DNA from: an uncultured Clostridia bacterium | GTDB lineage: Bacteria > Bacillota > Clostridia > Oscillospirales > Acutalibacteraceae | NCBI GenBank assembly: GCA_904399395.1 | Contig: CAJFPJ010000005.1 | Location: 1-64,000, forward strand | Direction of reading: 5' to 3' | Length of the DNA stretch: 64,000 bases | Shown: piece by piece, positions 11,962 to 28,199 of the stretch | Position numbering within the stretch: position 1 is the first letter of the stretch | Layout of the letters: the number at the start of each line of letters is the position of its first letter | Program-made: the position numbers and the translations under genes | The notes under the pieces: generated by a model | What the model was told of the DNA's origin: nothing | The model's database searches: none | Seen by the model: only the letters and a program-made list of their open reading frames with translations

Positions 11962-12297
11962 TTACATGGCAGAAGCTTCCGCTGCCATCCGCACCACATC
12001 CTCTTTTGAGCGGAGACCAACAGAGGTGGAAACCACCTTTCCATCCTTTATAACTGCCAGGGTGGGGATGCTCATCACCCCGAACTGCTGGGCGAGGCTG
12101 GGTTCCTCATCCACATTGACTTTTACGATTTTTGCTTTTGCACCCAATTCCGCGGCCACTTCCTCTAAAATAGGGGAAAACATGCGGCAGGGTCCGCACC
12201 AGGAAGCCCAAAAATCCACGAGCACAGGAACGGCGGCCGAGGCGGAAAGAACCTCCGCCTGGAATGTTTCGGTACGGACAGACTGAATTGCAGACAT
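11962..12297 (-). CDS. trxA: Thioredoxin
   Basis: 111-residue thioredoxin with the redox motif WCGPC at about residues 33-37 (FWASWCGPCRMF) and the cis-proline loop MSIPT. It reduces cytoplasmic disulfides and is normally recycled by thioredoxin reductase, which is not in this window. The start ATG at 12297 follows AAAAGGAGAATGCCAT. It appears monocistronic, convergent with sipW. Confidence 0.95.
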   Translation of the reverse strand: MSAIQSVRTETFQAEVLSASAAVPVLVDFWASWCGPCRMFSPILEEVAAELGAKAKIVKVNVDEEPSLAQQFGVMSIPTLAVIKDGKVVSTSVGLRSKEDVVRMAAEASAM

Positions 12298-12529
12298 ATG
12301 GCATTCTCCTTTTCCGGCGGCGGTTTTAGTCTTTCCGCCGTTTATAGTTATATCTGAATGATTTGAGACTGAAGCCGGAAAACGCTTTTCCCGGAAAACT
12401 GCGGTCCTTTTGGCCTTCCCTCTGCTTCAGTGTCTTCAGTATACCCTATCCCCGCATATTTTTCCGTGACCATGTCACACTTGTTCCGGTCTTTTCTGTG
12501 CTTTGGATTTCTGTTGAAAAACAAAAAAT

Positions 12530-13132
12530 TCAGGATTTAGAGCCGGGCATATCCTTCATTACTTTTGGAAAAAGCGGATTCGAATTATCAATAACCAAAT
12601 CGCTTTTTTCCCTTGGCTTATACATTTCCAAATACTTTTTCTGAACAGGAATATACTTTTCCCGATATTTGGCCAGAATCTCAGCTCCAAATCGAGGCAC
12701 ATCCCTGGCTTCTGCTCTGCGCAGCATTTCGTCAAAACCTATGTCCAGAAAAATCTTATAGTCAATGAATTCTTCCAAAGGCGGCCGGTATAAAAGGACA
12801 CCTTCAAATAATACCAAAGAATCGCTCTCTATAGTGTATTCCTTCCGATTGATATACAGATCTGTATCCAAATCCAAAAGCGTAAGCATTGCCGAGACCC
12901 TTCCGAATCTTCTAAGAGGAAGGAGCAGAGCGTTTATTATGGAAGATGTGTCAAAAGCATTGGAAAAATAAGCGGTAACTTCATCCTTTCCCTGAAGGCG
13001 CAGGGCCTTAGGGTTATGAAAATCATCTAGATGGATGACAGAAACCTTCCGGCCTTTGTATTTCAAAAAGATAGAAAAATCATCCGTAAACATGCTCTTC
13101 CCGGATGTATCAATTCCATTGATACAATGCAT
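12530..13132 (-). CDS. Uridine kinase-like P-loop kinase
   Basis: 200 residues with a Walker A motif at the very N-terminus (NGIDTSGKS, residues 5-13), a LDDFHNP motif after the second strand as in uridine kinase and phosphoribulokinase folds, LLFEGVLLYRPPL, and a late RAEARDVPRFG block like the kinase lid. The strand that normally precedes Walker A is missing from this frame, but the overlapping HAD frame reads KRPVVKCI just there. The first 69 nt overlap the HAD gene. It is either translated by coupling from the internal ATG at 13132 or is the C-terminal half of a HAD-kinase fusion split by a frameshift at the AAAA run near 13133. A nucleoside substrate is inferred from the fold only. Confidence 0.75.
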   Translation of the reverse strand: MHCINGIDTSGKSMFTDDFSIFLKYKGRKVSVIHLDDFHNPKALRLQGKDEVTAYFSNAFDTSSIINALLLPLRRFGRVSAMLTLLDLDTDLYINRKEYTIESDSLVLFEGVLLYRPPLEEFIDYKIFLDIGFDEMLRRAEARDVPRFGAEILAKYREKYIPVQKKYLEMYKPREKSDLVIDNSNPLFPKVMKDMPGSKS

Positions 13133-13845
13133 TTTACAACAGGCCGCTTCCGGAGCTCCTCATAGATCTGCGCAAACAAAGTAATTCTTACCACCCATGA
13201 ATATACAGCAAACGGCGTATCGGCGGCAAAAAACATATGTTTCTTTTCATTTTCCGTGCCGTATCCATAGCGGGCTCCCACAAAGGGCAAATCATTTTTG
13301 CAGGCGGCTTCCAAATCGCCGGCCCTGTCCCCAACCACAATGACATTCCTGCAAGGAGTAAGACTAAGCTTTATATGTAAGGCATGCGACTTGCTTTCAT
13401 AGTCCCGAGCGGAAAGAATTTCGTCAAAATATTTCTCAATTCCACCTCTTTTAAGAGCCACCGTGCTATATTCCACACTGCCGCTTGAACAAATCCACAG
13501 CTGAAAGCCTTCCTTTCTGAGTTGAGCCAAAACTTCGGGGACCCCTTTGTATAGCTGCCCCTCTTTTGCCAGATATTCCCGTTCTACTTTGCGAAAATCC
13601 TTCTTGAGCAGCTGAAAATCCCTGCAATCCGGGGCAATGGCGCGTAAAAAGGTGGTGGAATCTTCTCCTATATGCATTCGAATGCGTTCATCCTCCACGT
13701 CCGGCAACGAATGGAGGGCCAATACCTCGTGTACCGCCCTGCATACATGTATATGCGTGCAAAGCAGTGTCCCATCCAGATCAAAAACCACTATTCCTTT
13801 CACTGCCTCTTCCCCCGTATGTTTCTGCTTTTCCTCAGCACTCAT
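13063..13845 (-). CDS. HAD family hydrolase (phosphoglycolate phosphatase-like)
   Basis: 260-residue haloacid dehalogenase-type phosphatase. Motif I is FDLDGTLL near residue 22; motif II is the SSGS of LWICSSGSVEY; motif III/IV is VVGDRAGDLEAA. The cap between motifs I and II is helical, as in phosphoglycolate phosphatase relatives. The chosen start ATG at 13845 overlaps the last 11 nt of the GNAT gene (ATGAGTGCTGA), which implies translational coupling. The last 20 codons after KRPVVKCIV overlap the kinase and look like the wrong frame for a natural C-terminus; see the kinase entry. Confidence 0.82.
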   Translation of the reverse strand: MSAEEKQKHTGEEAVKGIVVFDLDGTLLCTHIHVCRAVHEVLALHSLPDVEDERIRMHIGEDSTTFLRAIAPDCRDFQLLKKDFRKVEREYLAKEGQLYKGVPEVLAQLRKEGFQLWICSSGSVEYSTVALKRGGIEKYFDEILSARDYESKSHALHIKLSLTPCRNVIVVGDRAGDLEAACKNDLPFVGARYGYGTENEKKHMFFAADTPFAVYSWVVRITLFAQIYEELRKRPVVKCIVSMELIHPGRACLRMIFLSF

Positions 13846-15034
13846 CCTGCTTCCACAAAAAGAGCGGCAAGGGCAGCCAGCTTTTAACAGCCGGGGAGAG
13901 CTTCTTGACCTGCTCCGGGGAAAGTTCTCTCCATCCGCCGGGAGCAAACAGGAGGCGGCAGGCTTCCAAAGCTGTGAGGCGGAACAAAGGCTCCCCCGCT
14001 TCCTTCTCCGGAACCATCCGGGCAGAAGCTGCGCCGTCTTTCACCTGCAGGCGCAGAATGCCGCGTCCTTCAATGGCAAACAAGAGCTCTCCTTCCGGCA
14101 AGGGGCCTTCCGGGGATGCCTGCTTCATCTGCAGGAAGGCACCCGCTGTCTTCTCAAAATCCATCACCCGGAAATTTCCCGAGCTCACTATGGTCATTTC
14201 TCCGCTGAGCCTTCCCAATTCGGGGGAAAGGCGTCCTTCCCAAAGGGGAAGGGCAATATGCAGCTCTGGAAGCCCCATTTTTTCCATTAGGGCCTTCAAC
14301 ACCTGAGGCAGTCGCTTTTCTTCCTGCTGTTCCTCGCCCGGCCGGGGCTGAAAAAGCATTTCCAGCACAGTATTCCCCACAAGGCATAGATACCCAATCC
14401 ACTCCCCAGAAAAGAAGATCCCATACGCTTCCCCGTGCCAGGAACGAAGAAGATCAAAAAATTCCTCCTGTTTCCGCTCTATCCGGGCAGTCTGCCCCTG
14501 GTGAAGCTCCCAGGCCTTCTGCAGCCAGGGCGCATCCTTTTCCGCCTTCTCAAATGTCACCATGGAAGCGTCCGCTTTCCCATACCGGTGCCGGATATTG
14601 TCCCATTCCACCGTATATTCCCATACGGGCCCTGCCGGGGCATATCCAAAATATTCATATCGCTGCCGCTGGCCGCTGAGAGCGCTGAAAGCGACGCCTT
14701 CCTTTTCCATATCTTTCAAGGCCCAATTCATCAGGGCCTTCATATATCCCTTTCCCTTGCAGGAAGAATGCACGCTGACTGAGCCTACGCCGTTGACCTT
14801 CAGCACCTCGCTGCCCACCCGGTATTCCATGGGCACAACACACACCATTCCCCGGATGACGCCGTCCTCCTTCACAAGGTAATGATACTGCTGGGTTCGT
14901 TTTCCCTCTCCATAGAGATTGGGCAGCTGCCTTCTAAAATCGTGAGGCCTGTGGCTTTTACTGAACACCAGATCCGCAAAATCCACAATAGCCTGCTCGT
15001 CCTCCGGTGTTCCTTTGCAATAGGTTACATTCAT
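13835..15034 (-). CDS. GNAT N-acetyltransferase, Eis-like with sterol-carrier C-domain
   Basis: 399 residues. The N-terminal GNAT domain (about 1-150) has the acetyl-CoA loop VNGVGSVSVHSSCKGKGYMKALM; a second GNAT-like part follows, and the last 100 residues (LQVKDGAASARMVPE... LTALEACRLLFAPGGW) resemble the SCP2-like domain of Eis proteins. Eis family enzymes acetylate amines such as aminoglycosides or peptide lysines; the substrate here is unknown. It is the first gene of a tight operon with the HAD and kinase genes. The start ATG lies behind AAGGAAGAATTGAA. Confidence 0.85.
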   Translation of the reverse strand: MNVTYCKGTPEDEQAIVDFADLVFSKSHRPHDFRRQLPNLYGEGKRTQQYHYLVKEDGVIRGMVCVVPMEYRVGSEVLKVNGVGSVSVHSSCKGKGYMKALMNWALKDMEKEGVAFSALSGQRQRYEYFGYAPAGPVWEYTVEWDNIRHRYGKADASMVTFEKAEKDAPWLQKAWELHQGQTARIERKQEEFFDLLRSWHGEAYGIFFSGEWIGYLCLVGNTVLEMLFQPRPGEEQQEEKRLPQVLKALMEKMGLPELHIALPLWEGRLSPELGRLSGEMTIVSSGNFRVMDFEKTAGAFLQMKQASPEGPLPEGELLFAIEGRGILRLQVKDGAASARMVPEKEAGEPLFRLTALEACRLLFAPGGWRELSPEQVKKLSPAVKSWLPLPLFLWKQDEC

Positions 15035-15314
15035 TTCAATTCTTCCTTTCTCTTCTTCTTTCTTTGCTCTCCAGGCCGGGAATCCGGGTACCTTTCCGTA
15101 ACCCGCACTCCACCGAAATTCGTCACCATAGTATACCGTTGCAGCCGCAAAAAGCTCTGTCTTTGTCTATTATGAAATTCCCTAAAAATTGTATCATGGG
15201 CCGGAAGCAAAGGCAAGAAAACAGAATGAAAAAAGCCCCATTTCTATTTTGCTGTTTTTCGCTAATACTTCTTAAAAAATTGCAGTTTTTTGTTGTAAAA
15301 ACCAAGAATAAATC
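15035..15314. other. Divergent intergenic region
   Basis: No gene. It holds the promoter of the GNAT operon (minus), not placed with confidence, and AT-rich sequence leading into the carboxylesterase promoter. Confidence 0.4.
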
Positions 15315-15343
15315 TTGATTTTCTCAGCTGTAAAGCATATAAT
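15315..15343 (+). promoter_or_regulatory. Sigma-A promoter of the carboxylesterase
   Basis: TTGATT, 17-nt spacer, TATAAT. The transcription start should fall near 15350, immediately before the TTAGCTAA palindrome. Confidence 0.75.
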
Positions 15344-15355
15344 TTATATATAAAA

Positions 15356-15381
15356 TTTTAGCTAAAATATATATTTTTAGC
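15356..15381 (+). promoter_or_regulatory. Candidate operator TTTTAGCTAAAA plus half site
   Basis: Perfect 12-bp palindrome TTTTAGCTAAAA (15356-15367) followed by a half site TTTTTAGC (15374-15381). Placed just downstream of the -10 box, as expected for repression. The same core occurs twice at the MFS promoter. Confidence 0.6.
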
Positions 15382-15473
15382 ATATGCAGTGCTCAACAAA
15401 ACTGGAAGCATAAAAAGTCCTTCGGCTGCTGGCCGGGCACTGCAGGAAACGGAAAGGAGTTGTTACATATCGC

Positions 15474-17024
15474 ATGTTGAGAAAGGTTCTCACCGAAAAC
15501 GGCTGGGTGGAAGGCATCCCCGCCGCAGATCCCCGGATCACCGCCTTTAAAGGCATTCCCTTCGCCGCGCCTCCCGTAGGCGATCTGCGCTGGAGAGCTC
15601 CCCAACCTGCAAAAAACTGGGAAGGCGTGCGGAAGGCCTATACCTTCGCCCCTATCTCCATGCAGGAGACCCCCGGAGCCGGCGACCCGGAAGCTCTTTA
15701 TAACAAGGAATGGCATGTAGATCCCGAAATCCCCATGGGGGAAGACTGCCTCTATCTGAATGTGTGGACGCCCGCCAAAACCGGGAAGGAAAAGCTCCCT
15801 GTGCTCTTCTGGATCTTCGGCGGCGGTCTCCAGTGCGGCTACCCGGCGGAAATGGAATTCGATGGGGAGCGTATTGCCCGGCGGGGCGTTATCCTAGTGA
15901 GCGTCAACTATCGAGTGAACGTGTTCGGCTTCTTCGCCCACCCGGAGCTCACCGCGGCGGCTGGGGATGAACCCTGCGCCAATTTCGGCCTGCTGGATCA
16001 GCGCGCCGGAATGGAATGGGTGAAGCGCAATATCGCCGCCTTCGGCGGGGATCCGGAGAATATCACCATTTTCGGCCAGTCCGCTGGGGGAGGCAGCACC
16101 ACCGCCCATGTAACATCCCCCATGGATGAAGGCCTCTTCCAGAAGGCTATTATTCAAAGCGGCGGCGGATTCTGCCCGGGCTTTAACCAGGATTACAACA
16201 GCTTGGAGCAGCAGGAAAAAATTGGCGAAGGCTTCCTTCAGTATCTGGGTGTTTCTTCTATCGAAGAAGCCCGGAAGATCGACGCTAAAACCCTCTATGA
16301 AAAGGCCGTGGAATACCCTGTGCCCATAAAGAATGGCAGGCCCTCTCTGAAGTGGAACATGGTCATAGACGGGAAATTCCTCAAGGAGGATCCGGTCAGC
16401 GCCATTCTTCACAAACGTCGCTGGCCCGTTCCCCTTATGATGGGAAACACTCTGGATGAATTCCCGGCTGTTCCGCCTTTCTCCTCTCTGGAGGATGTAA
16501 AAACCTATGCCCAGGCGGAATTCGGGGAAAATGCCGGTGAATATCTCTCCCTTTGTGATTTTGCTTCAGGCGATTTGGAGCATATCCGCCAAAAGGCCAC
16601 TTACAATGCCTTTGAGCTTGGAAACCTGCTTTGGGCGGAAAAGAACGCCGACCTTGGGAAGCTTCCCATCTATCTCTATCGTTTCAATCCCGAGATGCCC
16701 GGCGACAGCAGCGGTTCCTTCCATTCCTCCGAGCTCTGGTTCGTCTTTGAGACCTTAGCCAAATGCTGGCGGCCCTTCCGTGGCAAGCACTACGACTTGG
16801 CCCGGCAAATTTGCAATTACTGGGCGAACTTTGCCAAAACGGGAAATCCCAACGGCCCGGATGACGACGGTTCTCCCATGCCATACTGGGAACCGTATAC
16901 GGAAAGCAGCCCCCGGGCCATGTATTTTGGAGATGCTCCCGCCATGGATGAAGAAGGATATTCCGACCTTATGCACTTTCTGCTAAAGGAAGGGCTCAAA
17001 AAGCTGGATTGCAGAAAAGAATAA
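15474..17024 (+). CDS. Carboxylesterase/lipase family protein (type B)
   Basis: 516-residue alpha/beta-hydrolase of the cholinesterase/type-B carboxylesterase family, with no signal peptide and hence probably cytoplasmic. The N-terminal signature (AFKGIPFAAPPVGDLRWRAPQP) and EDCLYLNVWTP are diagnostic. The oxyanion hole is in WIFGGGLQCG, the nucleophile elbow is FGQSAGG (about residue 203) and the catalytic His is in FHSSELWFVF near 420. It hydrolyses carboxylic esters; with the GH43-like gene and three other esterases nearby, acylated plant glycosides are a plausible substrate (inference). AAAGGAG lies about 14 nt before the ATG, a little far. Its promoter carries the TTAGCTAA palindrome. 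Confidence 0.92.
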   Translation: MLRKVLTENGWVEGIPAADPRITAFKGIPFAAPPVGDLRWRAPQPAKNWEGVRKAYTFAPISMQETPGAGDPEALYNKEWHVDPEIPMGEDCLYLNVWTPAKTGKEKLPVLFWIFGGGLQCGYPAEMEFDGERIARRGVILVSVNYRVNVFGFFAHPELTAAAGDEPCANFGLLDQRAGMEWVKRNIAAFGGDPENITIFGQSAGGGSTTAHVTSPMDEGLFQKAIIQSGGGFCPGFNQDYNSLEQQEKIGEGFLQYLGVSSIEEARKIDAKTLYEKAVEYPVPIKNGRPSLKWNMVIDGKFLKEDPVSAILHKRRWPVPLMMGNTLDEFPAVPPFSSLEDVKTYAQAEFGENAGEYLSLCDFASGDLEHIRQKATYNAFELGNLLWAEKNADLGKLPIYLYRFNPEMPGDSSGSFHSSELWFVFETLAKCWRPFRGKHYDLARQICNYWANFAKTGNPNGPDDDGSPMPYWEPYTESSPRAMYFGDAPAMDEEGYSDLMHFLLKEGLKKLDCRKE

Positions 17025-17090
17025 ACAAACCTTTTTTATCATGAAGGAAGCCAAAACTACAAATGCGTATCTATTCCGGCAGTCATATAA

Positions 17091-17133
17091 AAGCAGCCGC
17101 CCTCTTTCATAGTGAAAAGGAGGGCGGCTGCTT
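17091..17133. terminator. Terminator after the carboxylesterase
   Basis: 14-bp stem AAGCAGCCGCCCTC / GAGGGCGGCTGCTT between convergent genes. Confidence 0.7.
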
Positions 17134-17160
17134 CCCCTGTATAGTTTATCTGTTCATATG

Positions 17161-17195
17161 AAAACGGAAAGAGGCACTTCCTCTTTCCGTTTTTC
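17161..17195. terminator. Second terminator between convergent genes
   Basis: AAAACGGAAAGAGG, 5-nt loop, CCTCTTTCCGTTTTT. Symmetric with T/A runs on both sides, so it can serve both the carboxylesterase and the MFS gene. Confidence 0.8.
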
Positions 17196-17228
17196 TCTTC
17201 CTATTCTATAGATTCTATCATGTCCCTT

Positions 17229-18524
17229 TCACTGCTCTGCGGCCGGCGCTGGTTCACCCGGTTCACCCGCCTCACCGGACCGTTCAGCAAAAACTCCGGG
17301 AAATAGTTTCTCCCGTTTCTGATACAGATTAAATACCAAAAGACCTGCCGCCAGGATCGCCGCCGTCATCCAGAAGGCCGCCTCGCACCCCCAAGCAGAC
17401 GATACGGCCCCACCGATCACCGGGCCGATACCCTGGCCGATATCAGCCCCTATGTAGAAGGTGCTGGCTGCTACGCCGGAACGAAGAGGCCCCGCTTTCT
17501 TGATACATTCCGCCTGCAGGGATATCTGGCCCCCTCCCTGACCCGCAGCCTTCAGAACAGCCGCCGCCAGGATCATGGGCAATACAAAAGCCCTGCCAAT
17601 CAGCGCCATTGCCGCAACGGATGCCAGAAGCGAAAGGTTCACAATCCAAGTGAGGCCGTTTTTATCCGCCAGCCGCCCGATCAGCAGCCGCATTCCAAAA
17701 AGGACTACCGCGCTGACTGTAAAGAAAGACATATATCCCTCAATACCGCGTTCATCACAGAAAATCTTCAAAAAGGAATTCACAATACCGTTTGCAAAGG
17801 AAAACAGTCCCCCTATCAGGGCAAAAACGGCTACATCCAAAGCGATAAGATTCCGCCAGGAAAAAGAATGCTTTTTTTGTCCGCCGGTTTTATCTGCTGA
17901 AACTTCGCTTTCCTTTTCTTCTTTATACGGGAATTGAATCAACAGAAGAACGCCCACTGCTGTCAGGCCCGCAATCAGGAAAAACAAAGTTCTATAACCG
18001 AAGGCTTCCTCAATAGCCGCCCCCATGCCGGGACCAACTGCCTGAGCAAAAACCTGCCCCAAACCGTAAAAACCCAGCCCTTCCCCCATGCGGCTTTTGG
18101 GAATGCAGGTGCTCACAAGGGCAATGTTGGCGGTTCCGCTCACACCGAAGGCCGCGCCGTGCAGGATACGCATGATAAGCATGGAGGAAACATCCGGGAC
18201 CAGAGCATATCCCACCGCCGAAAGGGCAATGACCCCCGTGGCAAGGACGCAGATCCATTTTTTATTAAAACGATCTGCCGCGGCTCCCGCAAAGGGACGG
18301 ACACAAAGGGCTGTTATGGAAAATATGCCCGCTATGAGGCCCGATATGGTCAACCCGGCCCCTAGGGAATTTTGGGAATATTCCACAATCATAGTATATA
18401 CCATGTTGAAACCGATAGCCGTGATAAAACTAACCAGAATCAAAAATAGGAACTGACCGCTCCAAAGCCGTTCTTTTTTGCGGCTGTTTTCTCTATTGTT
18501 GCCAAGAGAATCTTTTTTCTCCAT
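17229..18524 (-). CDS. MFS transporter
   Basis: 431-residue major facilitator with about 12 helices. It has the loop 2-3 signature region PFAGAAADRFNKKW, the N-terminal half ending in a charged central loop (EEKESEVSADKTGGQKK), and a related motif in the second half (RLLIGRLADKNG). Exporters and sugar importers are both possible. The chosen ATG at 18524 follows AAGGGGCGGAGCT; the track's upstream TTG lacks spacing. Its promoter carries two TTAGCTAA sites in the same position as in the convergent carboxylesterase, so both genes are likely co-regulated and the transporter may handle the esterase's substrate. Confidence 0.88.
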   Translation of the reverse strand: MEKKDSLGNNRENSRKKERLWSGQFLFLILVSFITAIGFNMVYTMIVEYSQNSLGAGLTISGLIAGIFSITALCVRPFAGAAADRFNKKWICVLATGVIALSAVGYALVPDVSSMLIMRILHGAAFGVSGTANIALVSTCIPKSRMGEGLGFYGLGQVFAQAVGPGMGAAIEEAFGYRTLFFLIAGLTAVGVLLLIQFPYKEEKESEVSADKTGGQKKHSFSWRNLIALDVAVFALIGGLFSFANGIVNSFLKIFCDERGIEGYMSFFTVSAVVLFGMRLLIGRLADKNGLTWIVNLSLLASVAAMALIGRAFVLPMILAAAVLKAAGQGGGQISLQAECIKKAGPLRSGVAASTFYIGADIGQGIGPVIGGAVSSAWGCEAAFWMTAAILAAGLLVFNLYQKREKLFPGVFAERSGEAGEPGEPAPAAEQ

Positions 18525-18546
18525 AGCTCCGCCCCTTTTCAACTTA

Positions 18547-18580
18547 TTTTTAGCTAATATATAATTAATATTAGCTAATA
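18547..18580 (-). promoter_or_regulatory. Two candidate TTAGCTAA operators at the MFS promoter
   Basis: Two exact TTAGCTAA cores at 18550-18557 and 18571-18578, 21 nt centre to centre (two helical turns), both just downstream of the -10 box on the minus strand. Matches the palindrome at the carboxylesterase promoter. Confidence 0.65.
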
Positions 18581-18583
18581 TTT

Positions 18584-18613
18584 ATTATACATTAGCACCA
18601 TTTACTATTGCAA
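18584..18613 (-). promoter_or_regulatory. Promoter of the MFS gene
   Basis: On the minus strand TTGCAA, 18-nt spacer, TATAAT. Confidence 0.65.
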
Positions 18614-18699
18614 TAGATCTTATGAACAAAAATTACACACACGTATTTAAACCATAAAAACTATAAAAATATTCAGAAAAATTTTTCAAATACACATTC

Positions 18700-18740
18700 T
18701 GATAGTCAAAGCTAAATTTTAGTTAAATATTGTCTTTATT
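18700..18740. promoter_or_regulatory. Degenerate site AGCTAAATTTTAGTTAA
   Basis: Imperfect inverted repeat related to TTAGCTAA, in the AT-rich region between the MFS and GH43-like promoters. No promoter is clearly attached to it. The rest of 18614-18921 shows no gene. Confidence 0.3.
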
Positions 18741-18921
18741 GAAAGTTTCACTAAGCAATCCAATAAAAAAACAGCTAACCCATTTTGTTTCTCCATCAGA
18801 TAAAAACAGCTTGGCTTTCTATACTTTCTATGGCATATGCAGTAATTTACAGAGTCTCTGGTGAAGATACTTAAACATTTTTGTCAACCTTGCATTTTTT
18901 TGTCTACTTCCTTTTGCTTTC

Positions 18922-18950
18922 TTGTCTTTGCCAGACGAAAATAGTACAAT
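18922..18950 (+). promoter_or_regulatory. Promoter of the GH43-like gene
   Basis: TTGTCT, 17-nt spacer, TACAAT. An inverted repeat ACAATAC (18946-18952) / GTATTGT (18965-18971) overlaps the -10 box and start site and could be a repressor site. Confidence 0.6.
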
Positions 18951-19065
18951 ACTTCTGTATCGTTGTATTGTCACTGTTGGCCGGAGATACAGCAGTGCAG
19001 AGATTTGTTCTTTCCATCCGTACTGCTGGGCCCGGGCAAACAAAGAGGAACAGGGAGGAATTAAA

Positions 19066-20103
19066 ATGAAAAACGCAACCAAGTATCCCGTTCACGTGCG
19101 GGATCTGAACACGCGGGATATCTGCATCGTCCCCGTGGAAGAAACACAAACCTATTATTTGATCGACTGTAAGCCCCGCCCAGGGCAGAAAAAACGCTGC
19201 GTCAATATCCGCGAAAGCAAGGATCTCATGTGGTGGAGCGAATCCGAGCTGATCTATGAACCCGATGAGGAATACTGGGGCCAGCTGGATTACTGGGCAC
19301 CTGAGGTACACCGCTGGAGAGGCAAATATTATCTTGTAAGCTCCTTCCGCAAGCCGGGCGGCTGCCGGGGCTGCCAATTCCTGGTGGCGGATTCCATTAA
19401 GGGCCCTTATAAACCCATGGTAAACCACCCTGCCACCCCCGAAAACTGGCATTGTCTGGACGGCACCCTTTATGAAGACAAAAACGGCCAGCCCTGGATG
19501 GTTTTCTGTCATGAATGGACCCAGGTGCAGGATGGACAGATGTGCGCTATCCGTATGAAGGATGATCTTTCCGATTCCATCGGCGAACCCATCATCCTTT
19601 TCAGAGCCTCGGAAGCACCCTGGAAATTCACCGACGACAAAGGACTGTGGGAGTTCAGCGACCCTCAGTACAATGTGGGCTGGGCCCGCATTACGGACGG
19701 ATGCTATATGTACCGGGCTAAAAACGGCGAGCTTCTCATGACCTGGACCAGCTATTCCAACACTGCCTACACCACTGGCTATGCTCGCTCTCTTTCCGGA
19801 GAAATACAGGGTCCCTGGGTGCAGGAACCGGAACCTCTTTTCAGCCAGGACGGCGGCCACGCCATGTTCTTCCATCGGTTCGACGGCACCCTGATGATGG
19901 TGCTTCACAGCCCCAATCGGCCTGGTAAGGAACATATGCTCCTCTTCGAGATGGAAGATAACAACGGCAAGCTTTTCATCAAAAATGAACTTACAGGGAA
20001 TTTCCTTTGGATTTACAACGAGCGGGATCAGAGATATCTGAATTCTCTGCAGGAGGCTGCCCCTGAAGAGAAAAAAGTTTCTGAAGAGGCGCCAAAGGAA
20101 TAA
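19066..20103 (+). CDS. Glycoside hydrolase family 43-like protein
   Basis: 345-residue cytoplasmic protein of the five-bladed GH43/62/32/68 superfamily. Repeated blade motifs are visible: DYWAPEVHRWRGKYYLVSSF (about 75-94), the LDGTLYEDKNGQPWMVFCHEW block (about 130-150) and WTSYSNTAYTTGYARS. GH43 enzymes release arabinose or xylose from plant oligosaccharides. The exact linkage is not readable, and the acidic residues suggested (Asp near 14, Glu of CHEW) need a structural check. The start ATG follows GGGAGGAATTAAA; the track's longer N-terminus overlaps the promoter. The C-terminal 30 residues are charged and low-complexity. No signal peptide, so the substrate would be imported oligosaccharides. 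Confidence 0.82.
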   Translation: MKNATKYPVHVRDLNTRDICIVPVEETQTYYLIDCKPRPGQKKRCVNIRESKDLMWWSESELIYEPDEEYWGQLDYWAPEVHRWRGKYYLVSSFRKPGGCRGCQFLVADSIKGPYKPMVNHPATPENWHCLDGTLYEDKNGQPWMVFCHEWTQVQDGQMCAIRMKDDLSDSIGEPIILFRASEAPWKFTDDKGLWEFSDPQYNVGWARITDGCYMYRAKNGELLMTWTSYSNTAYTTGYARSLSGEIQGPWVQEPEPLFSQDGGHAMFFHRFDGTLMMVLHSPNRPGKEHMLLFEMEDNNGKLFIKNELTGNFLWIYNERDQRYLNSLQEAAPEEKKVSEEAPKE

Positions 20104-20149
20104 TCATACGTACCCCCGTTTTGTGCTTCGCAAAGCCATATGCAAAGCA

Positions 20150-20190
20150 GAACCGGCTGTCCCCCGTTTAGGACAGCCGGTTCCCTTTTT
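20150..20190 (+). terminator. Terminator of the GH43-like gene
   Basis: 13-bp stem GAACCGGCTGTCC / GGACAGCCGGTTC followed by CCTTTTT. Confidence 0.85.
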
Positions 20191-20395
20191 GCGGTAAAGA
20201 TACTCATTCGCTTGGGCTCAGCCTGCTTCTATTATTTCTGTCACCCGCTTCCTCCGCCTTTCCGCCCCCTTAAGGCCATAAAACTTCCCTGTATGCATCC
20301 TACGCCTTCAGAAAAACGCACTCTACTGCTGCTATCCATCTGACGAGCTTTACAGACAGCAGACAGGAGCTCCCTTCTTACATGCAAACAGAGGC

Positions 20396-20442
20396 AAAAG
20401 GGCCCGCGCATCCTGTAATTCTATGGAAACGCGGGCCCTTTT
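20396..20442 (-). terminator. Terminator of the LacI-type regulator
   Basis: 13-bp stem AAAAGGGCCCGCG / CGCGGGCCCTTTT, about 58 nt past the LacI stop codon on the minus strand. The region 20191-20395 shows no gene. Confidence 0.75.
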
Positions 20443-20499
20443 CAATTTCTGTTTTCTAATACACTAAACACACAAAATAGAATTATGCCGCATATGGGC

Positions 20500-21543
20500 T
20501 CACTCTTCCGGGAAGCCTCCACAGGTCTTTCGGAAATTCATAGTAAGGGGCATAACCCGGGTAAGGGGACGGCGGTCCCCATTGTGAACGGCCTCCGATA
20601 CCATCCGAAGGCATTCAGCGCTCATCTCCTCCACCGGCATAGATATGCTGGAAACAGCGGGCTCTGTATATGCCTCCATTACGCCTCCAAAGGAGAGAAC
20701 CTCCATATCCTCCGGGATGCGAATCCCATACTGCAGGAAGGTTTTCACAGCCCCCACAGCCATATCGCTGATTTGAGCAAAAACAGCGGTGGGCAAGGCC
20801 TTCCCCTGCTCCAGAAAACGCTTTGCAGCACGGATTCCGCCTTCCGTGCTGATGTATTCCTCCTGCAAAAATGCAGTCTCCAGAGTAAGGCCCAGAAAAC
20901 GGCAGCCATCCATAAACCCCATTTTGCGCAAACTGCCGGATTTGTTCAAATTGGTGGGCAGAATGAGCCCCACTCTCTCATGCCCTCTGGCTTTAAAAAG
21001 GGAAGCTGCTTTCCTGCCCGCCTCATAGTCATCCACAGATACTGTGCTGTATTTTTCCGTGGGATGGTTATAGAGTACCACAGGAATATCAAAAGTATTT
21101 TTCAAAAGAAAAGGTATATCCTCTTCCTCAGACATACCTAACACAATGGCACCGTGACAGCTTTGAGAGGAAAAAAGGCGGCTGCATTTTTCCAGCTCCC
21201 GGAACCGGTATGGCCGGATAAGCAGATCGATGGGGCGACCTTCCTCAAGCACCACCTGCTGAAGCCCGTAAAGTACACGCCCCACTATGATTTTCACATC
21301 TGGGATATAGGGGATGTATACGGCGATTGTGAGCCTGTCCCCCCGTTCCGGGCGCCCCTGCCGCCTGCGGGAACGCACGGCGGGCTCATACCCCATCTCC
21401 TTTGCACCCTCCAAAACCTTTTTCTGTGTGGCCTTCGAAATGCGCATTTCATCTCCTCTCCCGTTGAGAACGATAGAGATCGTTCCCTGAGAGAGCCCCA
21501 GGGCTTCGGCCAATTCTTTTATCCGAATTGATTTCTTTTTCAT
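20500..21543 (-). CDS. LacI family transcriptional regulator
   Basis: 347-residue repressor. The N-terminal helix-turn-helix IRIKELAEALGLSQGTISIVLNG and hinge (ISKATQKKVLEGAKEMGYEP) are typical; a periplasmic-binding-protein-like sugar sensor follows from about residue 70 (DRLTIAVYIPYIP ... GHERVGLILPTNLN ... PVEEMSAECLRM). The start was set at the ATG at 21543, 9 nt behind GAGG; an ATG at 21549 is an alternative. Its promoter (-10 at 21642-21647 on minus) overlaps a perfect palindrome AGTATACTGTATACT that may be its own operator. It lies amid the esterase genes and is the best local candidate to sense a sugar from their substrates. Confidence 0.9.
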   Translation of the reverse strand: MKKKSIRIKELAEALGLSQGTISIVLNGRGDEMRISKATQKKVLEGAKEMGYEPAVRSRRRQGRPERGDRLTIAVYIPYIPDVKIIVGRVLYGLQQVVLEEGRPIDLLIRPYRFRELEKCSRLFSSQSCHGAIVLGMSEEEDIPFLLKNTFDIPVVLYNHPTEKYSTVSVDDYEAGRKAASLFKARGHERVGLILPTNLNKSGSLRKMGFMDGCRFLGLTLETAFLQEEYISTEGGIRAAKRFLEQGKALPTAVFAQISDMAVGAVKTFLQYGIRIPEDMEVLSFGGVMEAYTEPAVSSISMPVEEMSAECLRMVSEAVHNGDRRPLTRVMPLTMNFRKTCGGFPEE

Positions 21544-21641
21544 CCGCATTTTCCTCGCTATTCTGCAGCCTTCTCTCAAAACAGATCCATCTCCCGTAAA
21601 CATGAAAAATCCGGGCCTTTTCTAATCGGGCTACTATGTCC

Positions 21642-21670
21642 AGTATACTGTATACTACAGGAAAATGCAA
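21642..21670 (-). promoter_or_regulatory. LacI gene promoter with overlapping palindrome
   Basis: On the minus strand TTGCAT, 17-nt spacer, TATACT. The 15-nt perfect palindrome AGTATAC-T-GTATACT (21642-21656) covers the -10 box, suggesting autoregulation. A half site ATTTAGCAAC lies just upstream (21672-21681). Confidence 0.55.
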
Positions 21671-21690
21671 ATATTTAGCAACTTTTTCTG

Positions 21691-22863
21691 TTACCAGCGG
21701 AAGAGCCGTGGAAGCATGGCTGCAGCCGCCTTGCGCCAAACATCCCATTCATGATAGCCTGGAAAAGTTACATACTCCACATTATATCCCATCTCTCTGA
21801 GCTCTCTTGTCTGAGGTTCCGTAAACTGATGGCGGGGATCCTGTTCCCCACAGGCAATAAAAGTCAGAAGCATGTTTTTATTATATTCTTCAGGCGTAGT
21901 AAAAATATCAGAAAAATCATAAGGAACGCCCAATATGTCCCTTCCTTTGATGCTGAACCCAGCCCCGCAACTAAACATACCAAGGGAAGCAAAAAGTTCC
22001 TTATGATGGAAAGCTATCTCCCGGGCGTGGCTCGCTCCCATAGAAAGCCCTGCAGCACACCTGTATTCCCGCTGTGCCTTCGTTCGAAAGGCAGTATCTA
22101 TAAACGGAACGCAATCCTCCGCAATCACTCTGTCGATAGGCTTGGAAACAAAGGTGCCGCCCCCATCTGCTACATACGCATAGCCGGAATTCATTACAAC
22201 GATCATTTTCCGGCATCGTCCTTCGGCAATCAGATTATCCAAAATATAATGGATTTTTCCCTGCCAAACCCAACCGCATTCATTCTCCCCGCCTCCATGC
22301 TGTAGGTAAAGGACAGGGTACCGTTCATCCCCTTGATCATAGCCCGGGGGTGTATACACCCAGCAGGCCCGTTCCCTTCCTGTCACAGAAGATGCATATT
22401 GTTCCAGACGCACGCTTCCATGAGGGACATTCCGAATACAGTATTCGTCAAATTCCGGATCCGGCACCTCAAAATAATTAATTGCCCGGCCGCACCCATA
22501 GCCAACGGGTGCGATCGGGTTTATGGTTTCCACGCCGTTTACACGGTAACTGTGGTAGTGGAAACCCGGAGCTATTCCTTCCAGATATGCCTCCCAATAT
22601 CCGGAACCATCTTCCATAGGAGTAAGCGAATAACTTCCCTCCATAGATCCTCCCATTCCAACGATCTGAACAGAAGAAACCCCCGGCGCATAATACAGGA
22701 CCCGGATCCTTCCATCCTCCATTAGGGAAATCCCCGGCCTGTCTTCCAAGCCCACCTTTCGGATTTCGGGAAGTCCGTCTCCCGTCCTCACTCCATAAAA
22801 AGGATCATAGTAGAGCATTTGCTGCATAAAAATCTGATTGTTCCCAGCGAATTTGGAAGCCAT
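21691..22863 (-). CDS. Alpha/beta-hydrolase esterase, paralog 1
   Basis: 390-residue enzyme resembling enterochelin/feruloyl-type esterases: an N-terminal Ig-like (E-set/CBM48-like) domain (about 50-120, RVLYYAPGVSSVQIVGMGGSMEGSY) followed by an esterase D-like alpha/beta-hydrolase. Visible motifs: ACWVYTPPGY, YLQHGGGENECGW (oxyanion loop), nucleophile AAGLSMGAS, and catalytic His in FPGYHEWDVW. No signal peptide, so cytoplasmic. The start ATG at 22863 follows AAGGAGAATGAAA. It is divergent from paralogs 2 and 3 and transcribed toward the LacI gene. Removal of acyl groups from imported oligosaccharides is the likely role; the acyl group is unknown. Confidence 0.85.
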   Translation of the reverse strand: MASKFAGNNQIFMQQMLYYDPFYGVRTGDGLPEIRKVGLEDRPGISLMEDGRIRVLYYAPGVSSVQIVGMGGSMEGSYSLTPMEDGSGYWEAYLEGIAPGFHYHSYRVNGVETINPIAPVGYGCGRAINYFEVPDPEFDEYCIRNVPHGSVRLEQYASSVTGRERACWVYTPPGYDQGDERYPVLYLQHGGGENECGWVWQGKIHYILDNLIAEGRCRKMIVVMNSGYAYVADGGGTFVSKPIDRVIAEDCVPFIDTAFRTKAQREYRCAAGLSMGASHAREIAFHHKELFASLGMFSCGAGFSIKGRDILGVPYDFSDIFTTPEEYNKNMLLTFIACGEQDPRHQFTEPQTRELREMGYNVEYVTFPGYHEWDVWRKAAAAMLPRLFRW

Positions 22864-23085
22864 TTTCATTCTCCTTTCATCATTTCCCGGATGATATTCC
22901 AAGTGGTTTGGAAAATATTTATACTGTTGGTCAGGCTTGAGTCACACTTCTCCCGCCGCTTCCTTTTGCCGCATATCCGAAGTTTCTCCATTTTTCTGCG
23001 GCCTTTTCATATGGAATATCAAAATTTTGCAGCAGTCTGCTGGGATATGCCGGCCACTGCATATATCTATTGTATTTTTACATAC

Positions 23086-23115
23086 ATAATACAGAAACTT
23101 CGCTATATATGTCAA
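23086..23115 (-). promoter_or_regulatory. Promoter of esterase paralog 1
   Basis: On the minus strand TTGACA, 18-nt spacer, TATTAT. A TTTAGCAA half site lies at 23121-23128, and TGTATGTAAAAATACA, an inverted repeat, follows the -10 box. Confidence 0.6.
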
Positions 23116-23231
23116 TATAATTTAGCAATTTAATTACTATTTTATTTGTATATATGACTATATTTTGCAACAATAATTTATCTTAATATCCCATTTTGTC
23201 CTATATACTCTAGATTATCTTCAATATTCTC

Positions 23232-23282
23232 TTGACAAACTAGCTAAATATATTACAATTATAGTGATTAAAAGTTTAGCTT
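23232..23282 (+). promoter_or_regulatory. Promoter of esterases 2-3 with TTAGCTAA-like sites
   Basis: TTGACA (23232-23237), 16-nt spacer, TACAAT (23254-23259). A near match CTAGCTAAAT lies in the spacer, and a half site TTTAGCTT at 23275-23282 lies downstream of the start. This pattern resembles the operators at the carboxylesterase and MFS promoters. Confidence 0.6.
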
Positions 23283-23363
23283 CTTGAAGTCCGCTCCTCA
23301 TGATCCTCATTAAAGATCAGCAAGTAGCACGCAGAGTAGAAGAAGCCGAAAGGAGAAGTTATA

Positions 23364-24512
23364 TTGAAAAAAGAAATTGTAGAAAATCAAACCCTCAATT
23401 CCCATATGCTGTTTTTCGACCCTCTCAACAAGGTGGCCGTCATAGACAGAAAAGGGAGCGAAATGCCCTCAATCCGGTATGTGGATGTGAAGCCCGGTAT
23501 CCGGGTCTATGAAAACGGGGATACGGAATTCACCTTCTACGCTCCCGACGCCAAAAGCGTCCAGGTAGCGGGGATAGGCGGCTTCATGGGTAAAACCCGT
23601 TACGATATGAAAAAGGGTGAAGACGGCCATTGGAGCGTAACCGTTCCCGGCATCCACGAAGGTTTCCACTACCATGAATACTATGTAGACGGCAACCGCT
23701 GCATTAACCCCGACGCCCCGGTGGGCTACGGTTGTTTTTACCCCATCAACTATTTTGAAATGCCCGGTGACGATTCTTCCTTTTACCTTATGCGGGACGT
23801 CCCCCACGGAGATGTGCGCATGGAGCTATACCGCTCCTCCCTTACAGGCAGAATGAAAGCCTGCTGGGTCTATACGCCCCCCGGCTATGAAGAGCACCCG
23901 GAAAAGCAATATCCTGTTCTCTATATCCAGCACGGAGTAGGCGAAAACGAAACCGGCTGGATCTGGCAGGGCAAGCTGAACCTGATTGCCGATAACCTTT
24001 TGGCAGAAGGAAAATGCAAAGAAATGCTTATTGTTATGAACAGCGGCTATGCTTTTGTGGAAGGCGAAGACCCCCGTTTCTTCCCCGGGGATTTCGACGC
24101 TGAGCTCACAAAAGACTGCATTCCCTTTATCGATAAAAAATACCGTGTGGCCCCGGGAAAGGAAAACCGTGGCATCGCGGGCCTCTCCCTTGGATCCGCT
24201 CAGGCCTTCCTCTCCGGCATGAAACATCCGGAGCTTTTCACTCACGTGGGTGTGTTCAGCGGTGGATTCCCCATCACCCGGCCTGAATATGATTACTCGG
24301 AATTTTTCAGCGATCCGGAACGGGTAAATTCCACCTATAAGGCATTTTTCATTTCCGGCGGCGACCAGGAGGGCTACTGCGAGAACACCCTCCCCATTGT
24401 GGAAAAACTCCAGAAGGCAGGAGCTAACATCACAGGCTATCATCATGAGGGCTACCACTGCTGGGATATCTGGCGTTACAGCCTTCACGCTTTCCTGCCC
24501 CTTCTGTTTTAG
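23364..24512 (+). CDS. Alpha/beta-hydrolase esterase, paralog 2
   Basis: 382-residue paralog of the flanking esterases: an E-set-like N-terminal domain (TEFTFYAPDAKSVQVAGIGGFMG, about 50-75) and an alpha/beta-hydrolase with ACWVYTPPGYEE, YIQHGVGENETGW, nucleophile IAGLSLGSAQ and catalytic His in HHEGYHCWDIW. The start is TTG at 23364, behind AAAGGAGAAGTTATA; there is no better ATG. The third paralog follows 48 nt downstream, so both form an operon. The nucleophile elbow GLSLGS differs from GLSMGG/GLSMGA in the others, and the oxyanion loop has Val for Gly (HGVGEN), hinting at a different specificity. Confidence 0.85.
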   Translation: MKKEIVENQTLNSHMLFFDPLNKVAVIDRKGSEMPSIRYVDVKPGIRVYENGDTEFTFYAPDAKSVQVAGIGGFMGKTRYDMKKGEDGHWSVTVPGIHEGFHYHEYYVDGNRCINPDAPVGYGCFYPINYFEMPGDDSSFYLMRDVPHGDVRMELYRSSLTGRMKACWVYTPPGYEEHPEKQYPVLYIQHGVGENETGWIWQGKLNLIADNLLAEGKCKEMLIVMNSGYAFVEGEDPRFFPGDFDAELTKDCIPFIDKKYRVAPGKENRGIAGLSLGSAQAFLSGMKHPELFTHVGVFSGGFPITRPEYDYSEFFSDPERVNSTYKAFFISGGDQEGYCENTLPIVEKLQKAGANITGYHHEGYHCWDIWRYSLHAFLPLLF

Positions 24513-24560
24513 GAGTAAAGCTGAAGCAGGCCGATTATCTGAGAAAGGAAGAATTGACGC

Positions 24561-25721
24561 ATGAATATACAAAAAGAAATCATAGATAACCAGACTCTTC
24601 ATTCCCACGCCCTTTTCTTTGACCCAGTGGAGAAGGATCTGGTGCTGGCTTCGGATGAAAAGGGGCGCCCTATGGGTCGCTATGTGCCGAAACCCACCGG
24701 TGTGCAGGTTTTAGAAAACGGAGACGTTATTTTCCGCTATTACGCCCCCAATGCCAAAAGCGTCCAGGTGGCAGGAATAGGCGGCACTATGGGAACCCAA
24801 CGCTATGATCTTTCCCCTCGGGGTGACGGTTACTGGGAGGCCACTGTCTCCGGCATCGGCCCCGGTTTCCATTACCATGATTATTATGTGGATGGCAACC
24901 GCGCCTGCAGCGACCTGGCTCCCTATGGATACGGCTGCTTCCGAGTGCTGAACTATTTTGAAATGCCCGATATTTATTCAGATTTTTATCTTCTGCAGGA
25001 TGTGCCCCACGGCACCATTCGCATGGATTACTACAAATCTTCTGTAACAGGCCGCATACGAAACTGCTTTGTCTATACCCCGCCCGGCTACGAGGAACAT
25101 CCGGAAAAGCGCTACCCTGTTTGGTATCTGCAGCATGGCGGCGGCGAAGATGAAACCGGCTGGATCTGGCAGGGAAAAATTAACTATATTCTCGATAATC
25201 TTCTGGCCTCGGGCCAATGCCGGGAAATGATTGTGGTCATGAATTGCGGCTACGCCTTTTTCCCCGATGGTTCCGGCCATCACTCCCGGGGGCAGATCGG
25301 TGATGTGCTGGTAAAGGACTGCATCCCCTTTATCGATAAAAAATACCGCACCCTCCCTCATCGCAGGGCACGGGCCATGTCGGGCCTTTCTATGGGCGGT
25401 TTCCAAAGCCAGAGCACAGTGTTCCAGTACCCAGAATATTTTGCTTCCGTAGGCCTTTTCAGTTCTAATTTCATCGTAAAGAATGAAGAGGATGACTATA
25501 CGGAACTTCTTTCCGATCCTAAAGCTTTTAATGAACTCTTTGATCTCTGTTTTGTTTCTTGGGGTGATCAGGAGGATATGAAGGCCTCCAACGGTCCCCT
25601 TCTCTCCAGCCTTAGGGAAAAGGGCTTCCGGATCGTTTCCTATGTAACGCCCGGCTACCATGAATGGGCCGTGTGGCGATACAGCGCTCGGGAGTTTGCA
25701 AAACTTCTTTTTCGAAAATAA
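24561..25721 (+). CDS. Alpha/beta-hydrolase esterase, paralog 3
   Basis: 386 residues, highly similar to paralog 2 from the first residues onward (IxxNQTLxSHxLFFDPxxK). E-set-like domain with VIFRYYAPNAKSVQVAGIGGTMG, then NCFVYTPPGYEEHPEKRYP, YLQHGGGEDETGW, nucleophile MSGLSMGGFQ and catalytic His in TPGYHEWAVW. Cytoplasmic by absence of a signal peptide. The start ATG follows AAAGGAAGAATTGACGC. Last gene of the esterase operon, ended by a strong terminator. Confidence 0.87.
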   Translation: MNIQKEIIDNQTLHSHALFFDPVEKDLVLASDEKGRPMGRYVPKPTGVQVLENGDVIFRYYAPNAKSVQVAGIGGTMGTQRYDLSPRGDGYWEATVSGIGPGFHYHDYYVDGNRACSDLAPYGYGCFRVLNYFEMPDIYSDFYLLQDVPHGTIRMDYYKSSVTGRIRNCFVYTPPGYEEHPEKRYPVWYLQHGGGEDETGWIWQGKINYILDNLLASGQCREMIVVMNCGYAFFPDGSGHHSRGQIGDVLVKDCIPFIDKKYRTLPHRRARAMSGLSMGGFQSQSTVFQYPEYFASVGLFSSNFIVKNEEDDYTELLSDPKAFNELFDLCFVSWGDQEDMKASNGPLLSSLREKGFRIVSYVTPGYHEWAVWRYSAREFAKLLFRK

Positions 25722-25768
25722 TTTGATTCTTGCATAGCATATAGGAAGACTGCATGCAAAAACAGGCA

Positions 25769-25810
25769 AAAGAGAGCGCCGATGCGGCCAAACGCACCAG
25801 CGCTCTCTTT
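25769..25810. terminator. Terminator between esterase 3 and MATE 2
   Basis: 11-bp stem AAAGAGAGCGC / GCGCTCTCTTT with a 20-nt loop, between convergent genes and flanked by A and T runs. Confidence 0.75.
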
Positions 25811-25816
25811 CCATTT

Positions 25817-27211
25817 TTATTCTGTGATCTTTTCCCTCTTCCGATTCTTCCCAAAGCTATAAGGCGAAAAATCCCCGTTGTGCGTCCGCTTCAACAAGAT
25901 ATACGCCACAATGGAAGCGCAGAGCTCAGAAATGGGGAAGGAGGCCCAAATGCCCGCCGGGCCCCAGAAACGGGATAGGAGAAATCCCAAGGGAATGGTA
26001 ATGGCAAACTGCCGCAAAAGGGAGATAATCAGGGATTCTCTTCCCATTCCCAGAGCCTCAAACGTTCCCGAATGGATAACTCCAATGGTGGAAACAAGGA
26101 AGCCAAGGCCAATAATGCGCAATGCCTCCACTCCCGCCTCCAGAAGGGTGGGTTCCGCATCAAAAAGGGCAAATATCTGCCCCGGAATGAAAAGAGCAGC
26201 AACTGTCCCTATCAGCATAATTGCAGCCGTATACAGCAGACTGTGCCGGACAGCCTTGCGAACCCGGGCGTACTCCCCGGCCCCGTAATTATATCCCACA
26301 ACGGGCCTCATTCCCTGAACGATACCGTTGGCCGGTAGATAAATAAAGGTCTGCAGTTTGAAATAGACCCCCAAAACGGCTACATATACGTCAGAAAAAG
26401 CCGCAAGGAAGCCATTCAACGCGCTGATCAAAACAGAAGGAAGGGCAGTCATAATCGTGGAAGGGATACCCACGGAATATATCTGCTTTATGATACCCCA
26501 ATCCATCTTGAGATATGTAGGGTGAATCGTCACCGGAAAAGCCTTTCTTTTTTTCATATACACCACAACATAGAGGAAAAAAGCGCCTATCTGGCCGATG
26601 ACGGTGGCTATAGCCGCGCCCGCCACGCCCATGGGTGGAATACCTGCAAAGCCGAAAATCAGAATAGGATCCAAAACAATATTGATGACACATCCTGTGG
26701 CCAAAAGAACCATGGTGGTTTTCATGGCCCCCACAGCCTGGAAAATCTTTTCCATAGCGATCTGCAACAGATTCCCGAAGGAAACGCACAGGACGATATA
26801 CGTATATTGGCAAGCCATTTCCAGAGTGACTGTGTCGTTGGTGAAAAGTTCCAAAAAGGGCCTGGTGACAAATATGCCGAATACTACAAACAGAATGCAA
26901 TGAAGCACCGTGAGAGCCATTCCTATAGTGGCGGCGCGGTTTGCTTCTTCCTGCCTTCTGGCGCCCAGATGGATGGAAACCGCGGAGGTAATGCCCACAC
27001 CCACGCCTACAGCTACAGACAACACGATATTCTGCAAAGGAAAAGCCAGCGAAACGGCGGTGAGAGCCTGGGTTCCCAAGCGCGAAACATAGATGCTATC
27101 CACAATATTGTAGAGGGACTGGATCAGCATAGAAAGCATCATGGGTATGGACATGCTCATCAAAAGCTTTGATATGGGGCGCATTCGCATAAAATCATTA
27201 TTCTGTTCCAT
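25817..27211 (-). CDS. MATE family efflux transporter (second)
   Basis: 464-residue antiporter with about 12 helices and the two-fold repeat of the family (PMMLSMLIQSLYNIVDSIYVSRLG in the first half, GMRPVVGYNYGAGEYARVRKA in the second). It is only distantly similar to the 6.6-8.0 kb copy and belongs to another MATE subgroup. The chosen ATG at 27211 follows AAAGGATGCAATTA; the track's start (ATG CAA) is too close to the ribosome site. Substrate unknown. Confidence 0.92.
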   Translation of the reverse strand: MEQNNDFMRMRPISKLLMSMSIPMMLSMLIQSLYNIVDSIYVSRLGTQALTAVSLAFPLQNIVLSVAVGVGVGITSAVSIHLGARRQEEANRAATIGMALTVLHCILFVVFGIFVTRPFLELFTNDTVTLEMACQYTYIVLCVSFGNLLQIAMEKIFQAVGAMKTTMVLLATGCVINIVLDPILIFGFAGIPPMGVAGAAIATVIGQIGAFFLYVVVYMKKRKAFPVTIHPTYLKMDWGIIKQIYSVGIPSTIMTALPSVLISALNGFLAAFSDVYVAVLGVYFKLQTFIYLPANGIVQGMRPVVGYNYGAGEYARVRKAVRHSLLYTAAIMLIGTVAALFIPGQIFALFDAEPTLLEAGVEALRIIGLGFLVSTIGVIHSGTFEALGMGRESLIISLLRQFAITIPLGFLLSRFWGPAGIWASFPISELCASIVAYILLKRTHNGDFSPYSFGKNRKREKITE

Positions 27212-27362
27212 TAATTGCATCCTTTCAGCGGTTTTCCTTCATGAGATATGCTGGGTCATATGGCCGCAGGCATCCAGGCACAAAGCGGCAGCCTACGGAT
27301 ACAGGAAATCTTACCCCCGCTTTTCACCTGCAGCCTTTATATATCGCCTCTGCATATCCCAC

Positions 27363-27420
27363 AAAAAAGGGGCTATATACTGCTGTTTGAAGGAATCAGA
27401 AACAGCAAAATATATAGCCC
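27363..27420 (-). terminator. Terminator of the small hypothetical gene
   Basis: On the minus strand GGGCTATATA ... TGCTGTTT / AAACAGCA ... TATATAGCCC followed by CCTTTTTT. Long, nearly perfect stem. Confidence 0.85.
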
Positions 27421-27540
27421 TAATAGCAAATTCATTATATCGTATTTTTTCCGGCCCGTCAAGGATTGCACCGGCACGGCACTATCCGGCCCCGCCGAAA
27501 ACTGTAACCTTGCAGGTAGGATGCAACGGGGTCCAAACCG

Positions 27541-27870: not shown

Positions 27871-28199
27871 ATCCGCATCTCCTTTTCAACACTGATGATT
27901 TCTCTTGCCAGCCATTCTTTTTTCGTAAAGCGCGGCCAGTTATACTATACAAAAAGTATGCCATATTTTCAACTGTTTTTCAATGGTTTTTCATCTATTT
28001 ATACAGTTTTTCAGCAATACATTCTGCCCGACAGCACATATATACCTGCTGCAGAAGTCGGCGCAGCCGTCTGTAAACTTTAAATCCTTCCTCTTCTCTG
28101 TACCCTTTCAAAGAATCCGTCTTCCGAAGAGTATACACCACCGCTTCTTGCTGAGAGCAGATATGTTTCCGCACATGCCTCACACGCACCCATATCATC
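27871..28199. other. Intergenic region without a gene
   Basis: About 330 nt between two minus-strand genes. Several plus-strand ORFs in the track overlap here but have no ribosome sites or domains. It probably carries the promoter of the small hypothetical gene. Confidence 0.4.

Follow-up and report, generated by a model that had tools for sequence, protein, structure and literature searches.

Introduction

Several repressors that act on neighboring carbohydrate or esterase genes have been described. The EbgR-like LacI repressors LacR, GalR and RafR of Lactobacillus plantarum control local carbohydrate genes, and in proteins of this kind the hinge leucine and the central CG of the operator are absent together (PMC2329647). 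XynR, a LacI-family xylan regulator of Anaerocellum bescii, acts on hemicellulose enzyme, esterase and transporter genes (PMC12285236), and in Butyrivibrio fibrisolvens the hydroxycinnamoyl esterase gene cinB has a local repressor, CinR, which is grouped with MarR-family proteins (Dalrymple and Swadling 1997, as cited in PMC4132294). Here we analyze a stretch of 64,000 nucleotides from an uncultured Clostridia bacterium of the Acutalibacteraceae (contig CAJFPJ010000005.1, positions 1 to 64,000; hereafter the window), in which the word TTAGCTAA recurs in the promoters of a cluster of esterase and transporter genes that includes a LacI-family gene, lacI. A sequence-only reading had taken this word for the shared operator of an undescribed regulon under one repressor, perhaps MarR-type and encoded elsewhere.

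The cluster holds plant-fibre esterase and transporter genes, and its proposed regulator is a further member of a known LacI kind. Like the EbgR-like repressors, it has no hinge leucine, the sites assigned to it have no central CG, and it is associated with local carbohydrate genes, but their half-site is other than the GCTAA of this cluster; because most of this LacI subfamily keeps both leucine and CG, unlike the EbgR-like repressors, their loss here looks secondary. The likeness to XynR lies in the genes controlled, whereas its operator is of the type tttagaaatcgttttctaaa, unlike the GCTAAAACG of this subfamily; the published operators of XynR and GlyR2 were both tried as a match and both differ. 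CinR is alike in repressing an esterase gene locally, but the reader proposed here is a LacI protein. CytR of Escherichia coli, a LacI-family protein that works with CRP on nucleoside genes, tolerates a variable arrangement of half-sites, as does the reading proposed here. A title cited in PMC2329647 calls CytR a highly flexible LacI member.

Results

The three exact copies of TTAGCTAA lie where they had first been reported (Table 1), as do the near matches CTAGCTAA and TTTAGCTT (23275-23282) and the half-sites TTTAGCAA at 23121-23128 and 21674-21681; a third half-site in the MFS promoter, a second one downstream of the carboxylesterase site, and GCTAAATTTTAGT had been missed. Judged on the window by itself, a count of three falls short of significance, as 7 of 100 shuffles reach at least three. 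In the whole genome (2.93 Mb), however, the copies are significant: pattern searches find TTAGCTAA 5 times and its reversed control word 35 times, and both copies outside the cluster fall within coding sequence, one in clpX and one in metK. The word is thus rare, and the frequent and random intergenic placement that would tell against a regulon is not seen. The 12-mer WWTTAGCTAAWW is confined in this genome to the three cluster sites.

The predicted basic unit is GCTAA(A)/TTTAGC, with TTAGCTAA being two overlapping GCTAA half-sites and not a full operator. There are 15 half-sites in 1508 bp of cluster promoters versus 5 in 11025 bp of other intergenic DNA in the window (Fisher p = 1.5e-10, uncorrected for AT content, the cluster promoters having 34% GC versus 45% elsewhere). 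The paired pattern GCTAAN{1,14}TTAGC is rarer genome-wide than its reversed control in four of four genomes, so it is informative by location only.

Promoters were assigned by consensus matches only, and on this basis the geometry first described for the carboxylesterase and MFS sites holds. The carboxylesterase promoter (TTGATT-17-TATAAT) ends at 15343, with its TTAGCTAA site downstream; the MFS promoter on the minus strand (TTGCAA-18-TATAAT) spans 18613-18584, with sites at 18578-18571 and 18557-18550, so that its half-sites lie across and downstream of the -10 box; and in the promoter of esterase 2 (TTGACA-16-TACAAT), CTAGCTAA falls within the -35/-10 spacer. The three half-sites of the MFS promoter follow each other at exact 21-bp steps (18550, 18571 and 18592; measured at 18553, 18574 and 18595). 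Across the LacI clade, GC-to-GC distances cluster at 11-13 and 21 bp, and the Rayleigh value at 10.5 bp is high, pairs within the same array not being independent.

Among 300 family genomes, a LacI of at least 48% identity and an MFS ortholog are found in the same four. In one genome of the same genus (G031), the whole cluster is syntenic except for esterases 2 and 3, and half-sites precede esterase 1/lacI, the MFS gene, the GH43 gene, the carboxylesterase and a sugar ABC binding protein; they are also found at an unlinked beta-lactamase-fold serine hydrolase that adjoins a carboxylesterase paralog. In a genome of another genus (G204), half-sites stand before the carboxylesterase/MFS pair and the esterases. 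In a further genome (G103), the cluster is split over 480 kb into three unlinked loci (L121, L081 and L028), with lacI at 1.406 Mb, esterases 2 and 3 at 1.60 Mb, and the carboxylesterase/MFS pair at 1.885 Mb, and half-sites are kept at all three. The second of these loci was matched by a blind genome-wide pattern search before its genes were known; they turned out to encode esterases 73% and 71% identical to esterases 2 and 3. A genome of the same genus that is without the LacI and MFS genes (G155) has a single WWTTAGCTAAWW, inside an open frame. When 5-mers are ranked against dinucleotide shuffles, GCTAA comes first in the orthologous promoters of G031, G103 and G204 and fourth in those of the present genome; among 6-mers, GCTAAA comes first in G103 and G204. 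The motif was already known when these regions were selected, so the ranking supports it but does not discover it. The motif is kept in orthologous promoters of three genomes, and this conservation, together with its rarity genome-wide, supports the proposal that these promoters share an operator and belong to one esterase/transporter regulon.

The G031 cluster (L027:1-3535) also contains a sugar ABC transporter, consisting of the binding protein, with TTAGCTAA directly upstream, and two permeases; no such transporter was seen beside the cluster in the window.

At 42 loci of distant LacI homologs, GCTAAAACG occurs 51 times in noncoding and 5 times in coding sequence, and 60 permuted words at the same loci give a noncoding mean of 1.1 and a maximum of 4. 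Upstream of lacI in these homologs, whose operator consensus is TTGCTAAAACGAAAtaGCaA, it outnumbers every other 9-mer. The ancestral operator of this LacI subfamily would have been about TTGCTAAAACGAAATAGCAA, a sequence that relatives in Paenibacillus, Lachnospiraceae and Ruminiclostridium have next to lacI, MFS and esterase genes. Behind the relatives' sites lie, among others, genes for MFS transporters and for CBM9-linked or PHB-type esterases, so a LacI-MFS-esterase regulon recurs in Paenibacillaceae, Lachnospiraceae and Ruminiclostridium relatives, and in many other Firmicutes the matching operator stands next to the gene of its regulator. The strict 16-mer GCTAAAWCGWWWWWGC was matched in four of eight genomes searched (Paenibacillus xylaniclasticus, P. 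woosongensis, Candidatus Eisenbergiella intestinipullorum and G458), and all seven matches are at the lacI locus. The genome under study has ten copies of GCTAAAACG, mostly inside coding sequence and none recognized near cluster-type genes, so the canonical operator is seemingly unused in it. An inverted-repeat operator near the repressor's own gene and local targets, as in LacI/GalR systems, is present in the relatives and here: TTGCTAAAACGAAATAGCAA at the relatives' lacI and the proposed operator TTGCTAAATATTTGCA at the lacI of the cluster. A literature search for the operator words found no relevant paper, and the regulon is undescribed to that extent only.

The lacI product combines a helix-turn-helix (PF00356, 27.8 bits, cut-off 27) with a periplasmic-binding-protein-like domain (PF13377, 87.9 bits), as LacI/GalR proteins do, and its relatives in PDB are CcpA and PurR. 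LacI proteins whose recognition helix has another residue in place of Arg have operators with T at position -6 (PMC2329647), R itself pairing with G at NT-6 (PMC2978694). The subfamily follows this rule: its recognition helix reads TISI, TVSI, TVSV or TVSL, with mostly Ile and some Val or Leu in place of Arg, and the sixth operator base from the center is T. The EbgR-like subgroup is marked by an insertion before helix 3, a hinge without Ala/Leu and an operator without central CG; a GDEMRIS stretch in the protein may be that insertion.

The hinge of this protein is EPAVRSRRRQ (YEPAVRSRRRQG), where relatives have PN...ARRLRQ (YQPNIYARRLRQ), a motif likewise replaced in G031. The half-site regions of the cluster contain no GCTAAANCG and lack the central CG, as do the G031 sites except one, TTTAGCTAAACGAC. 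Hinge leucine and central CG, both typical of LacI/GalR systems and present in most of the subfamily, are thus missing from this protein and its sites; because the two are also absent together in EbgR-like members, they are a common rather than a universal trait of the family. On the tree, the proteins of this genome, G031, G103 and G204 and of loci L049 and L058 form one clade (support 100/99), and the no-leucine label requires three changes. The leucine is retained in both G103 and G204, where CG sites occur as well as non-CG ones. A clean one-to-one link between leucine and CG did not emerge: L068 keeps the leucine without CG, and L049 is without the leucine but has CG sites at a distance of about 9 kb, one of which adjoins other LacI paralogs. 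The pairing apparent in the sequences is a lead and not a proof. In the L049 stretch (L049:9965-18244), from a Lachnospiraceae metagenome-assembled genome, about 8 kb hold three LacI-family genes of this type, with differing hinges and mixed CG and non-CG sites.

Table 1. Genes of the cluster and proposed operator elements in the window.
Feature	Position	Strand	Remark
Carboxylesterase (COesterase, PF00135)	15474..17024	+	Structural relatives p-nitrobenzyl/carboxyl esterases
MFS transporter	17229..18542	-	
GH43-type glycosidase	19064..20103	+	
LacI-family repressor, proposed half-site reader	20500..21603	-	
CE1-type esterase 1, related to feruloyl esterases	21691..22902	-	
CBM48-CE1 esterase 2	23364..24512	+	Closest to solved CBM48-CE1 feruloyl esterases
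CBM48-CE1 esterase 3	24561..25721	+	
TTAGCTAA, two overlapping GCTAA half-sites (predicted), downstream of carboxylesterase -10	15358..15365	.	Word search, promoter match
Second half-site TTTTAGC, downstream of carboxylesterase site	15375..15381	-	With 15361 makes GCTAAAATATATATTTTTAGC (15361-15381)
TTAGCTAA, MFS promoter region	18550..18557	.	
TTAGCTAA adjoining MFS -10	18571..18578	.	
Third half-site TTAGC, between MFS -35 and -10	18592..18596	-	Completes exact 21-bp series
GCTAAATTTTAGT, imperfect inverted pair, MFS/GH43 intergenic	18711..18723	.	Sequence; half-site at 18711
TTGCTAAATATTTGCA abutting lacI -35	21666..21681	-	Proposed autoregulatory operator
TTGCTAAA half-site, immediately upstream of esterase 1 -35	23121..23128	-	
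CTAGCTAA (GCTAA half-site), esterase 2-esterase 3 -35/-10 spacer	23240..23247	+	
TTAGC half-site, downstream of esterase 2 -10	23276..23280	-	

Other features were seen around the cluster. GC-rich hairpins lie in the 5' leaders of the carboxylesterase (15382-15473, GCAGTGC...GCACTGC, z-score -1.8) and of the GH43 gene (18957-19066, CAGCAGTGC...ACTGCTG, z-score -2.9); Rfam gave no match within 12000-28000, these hairpins included. A second common word, ATATGCAG / ACTGCATA, occurs near the leaders of the carboxylesterase, GH43 and esterase 1 genes (about 15383, 18835 and 23058), with 3 copies versus about 0.1 expected in shuffles. An AraC-type regulator gene (5485-6426) lies about 9 kb from the cluster.

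Discussion

We consider it very probable that the cluster's own LacI-family repressor reads operators made of paired half-sites (GCTAA/TTAGC), and that the TTAGCTAA words are such half-sites. Several observations weigh on the other side. The half-sites of the cluster are arranged irregularly (overlapping, or 19, 21 and 36 bp apart), whereas a LacI palindrome would be of one fixed form; WWTTAGCTAAWW is missing from G031, which in the cluster stretch examined has only two exact copies of TTAGCTAA; the lacI of G204 has no half-site directly upstream; and GCTAAAWCGWWWWWGC is absent from the other four of the eight genomes searched (G103, G204, G435 and the CE91-St56 genome).

Alternatively, one could envision two regulators, with LacI reading the single GCTAA and a second protein, such as the AraC-type activator, reading TTAGCTAA or the 21-bp series. 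Sites of AraC-type proteins have direct spacings like the 21 bp seen in the MFS promoter, and such a gene is present in the window; however, it is 9 kb away, the syntenic stretch examined in G031 ends short of it, and overlapping GCTAA half-sites, helically phased across the LacI clade, fully explain TTAGCTAA without it, so we regard a second reader as improbable. Still less probable is a MarR/SlyA-type repressor encoded elsewhere. In its favor, the site of the MarR-family protein SlyA resembles TTAGCTAA, the genome has ten MarR_2 genes, and the cinB repression by CinR cited above provides a functional precedent at a cinnamoyl esterase gene of Butyrivibrio. However, none of the ten MarR_2 loci has TTAGCTAA, only isolated one-mismatch forms being found nearby, and no MarR gene is associated with the site; the sites instead track LacI orthologs across species and adjoin lacI, the LacI of the cluster co-occurs with the MFS ortholog, and relatives carry the operator beside their own genes, which together speak against the part of the earlier proposal that took the repressor to be perhaps MarR-type and encoded outside the cluster. 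That AT-rich promoters yield TTAGCTAA by chance and no protein reads it, as the three copies in the window taken alone might allow, is scarcely credible and already strongly contradicted by the genome-wide exclusivity, the orthologous conservation and the independent operator at distant LacI loci.

The DNA itself shows where the sites are, that they are rare and conserved, and that they are associated with lacI; if LacI is the reader, we infer from this binding, repression and an inducer as follows. Without inducer, a LacI dimer would bind helically phased half-sites that overlap or adjoin the carboxylesterase, MFS, CE1 esterase and lacI promoters, and the bound protein would block their transcription; its release would come from a ligand derived from the esterified plant polysaccharide, for which an acylated or deacylated oligosaccharide is a plausible candidate. 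Within this genus, loss of the central CG would have accompanied that of the hinge leucine, so that half-sites at several spacings remained. A broader proposal, which we put forward tentatively and think less probable than not, is that hinge leucine and central CpG were lost together in one LacI subfamily as a fixed palindrome gave way to helically phased GCTAA arrays, with G103 and G204, which have the leucine and both kinds of site, as intermediates. If true, this would be a natural series showing how LacI operators change architecture, and the derived clade offers a direct test of a joint change in hinge helix and operator center.

Regardless of how these arrays arose, the analysis gives a feruloyl-esterase-type gene cluster in a Clostridia-type bacterium a predicted regulator and operator, and TTGCTAAAACGAAATAGCAA may serve to predict the LacI-MFS-esterase regulon in Paenibacillus, Cohnella, Ruminiclostridium and Lachnospiraceae.

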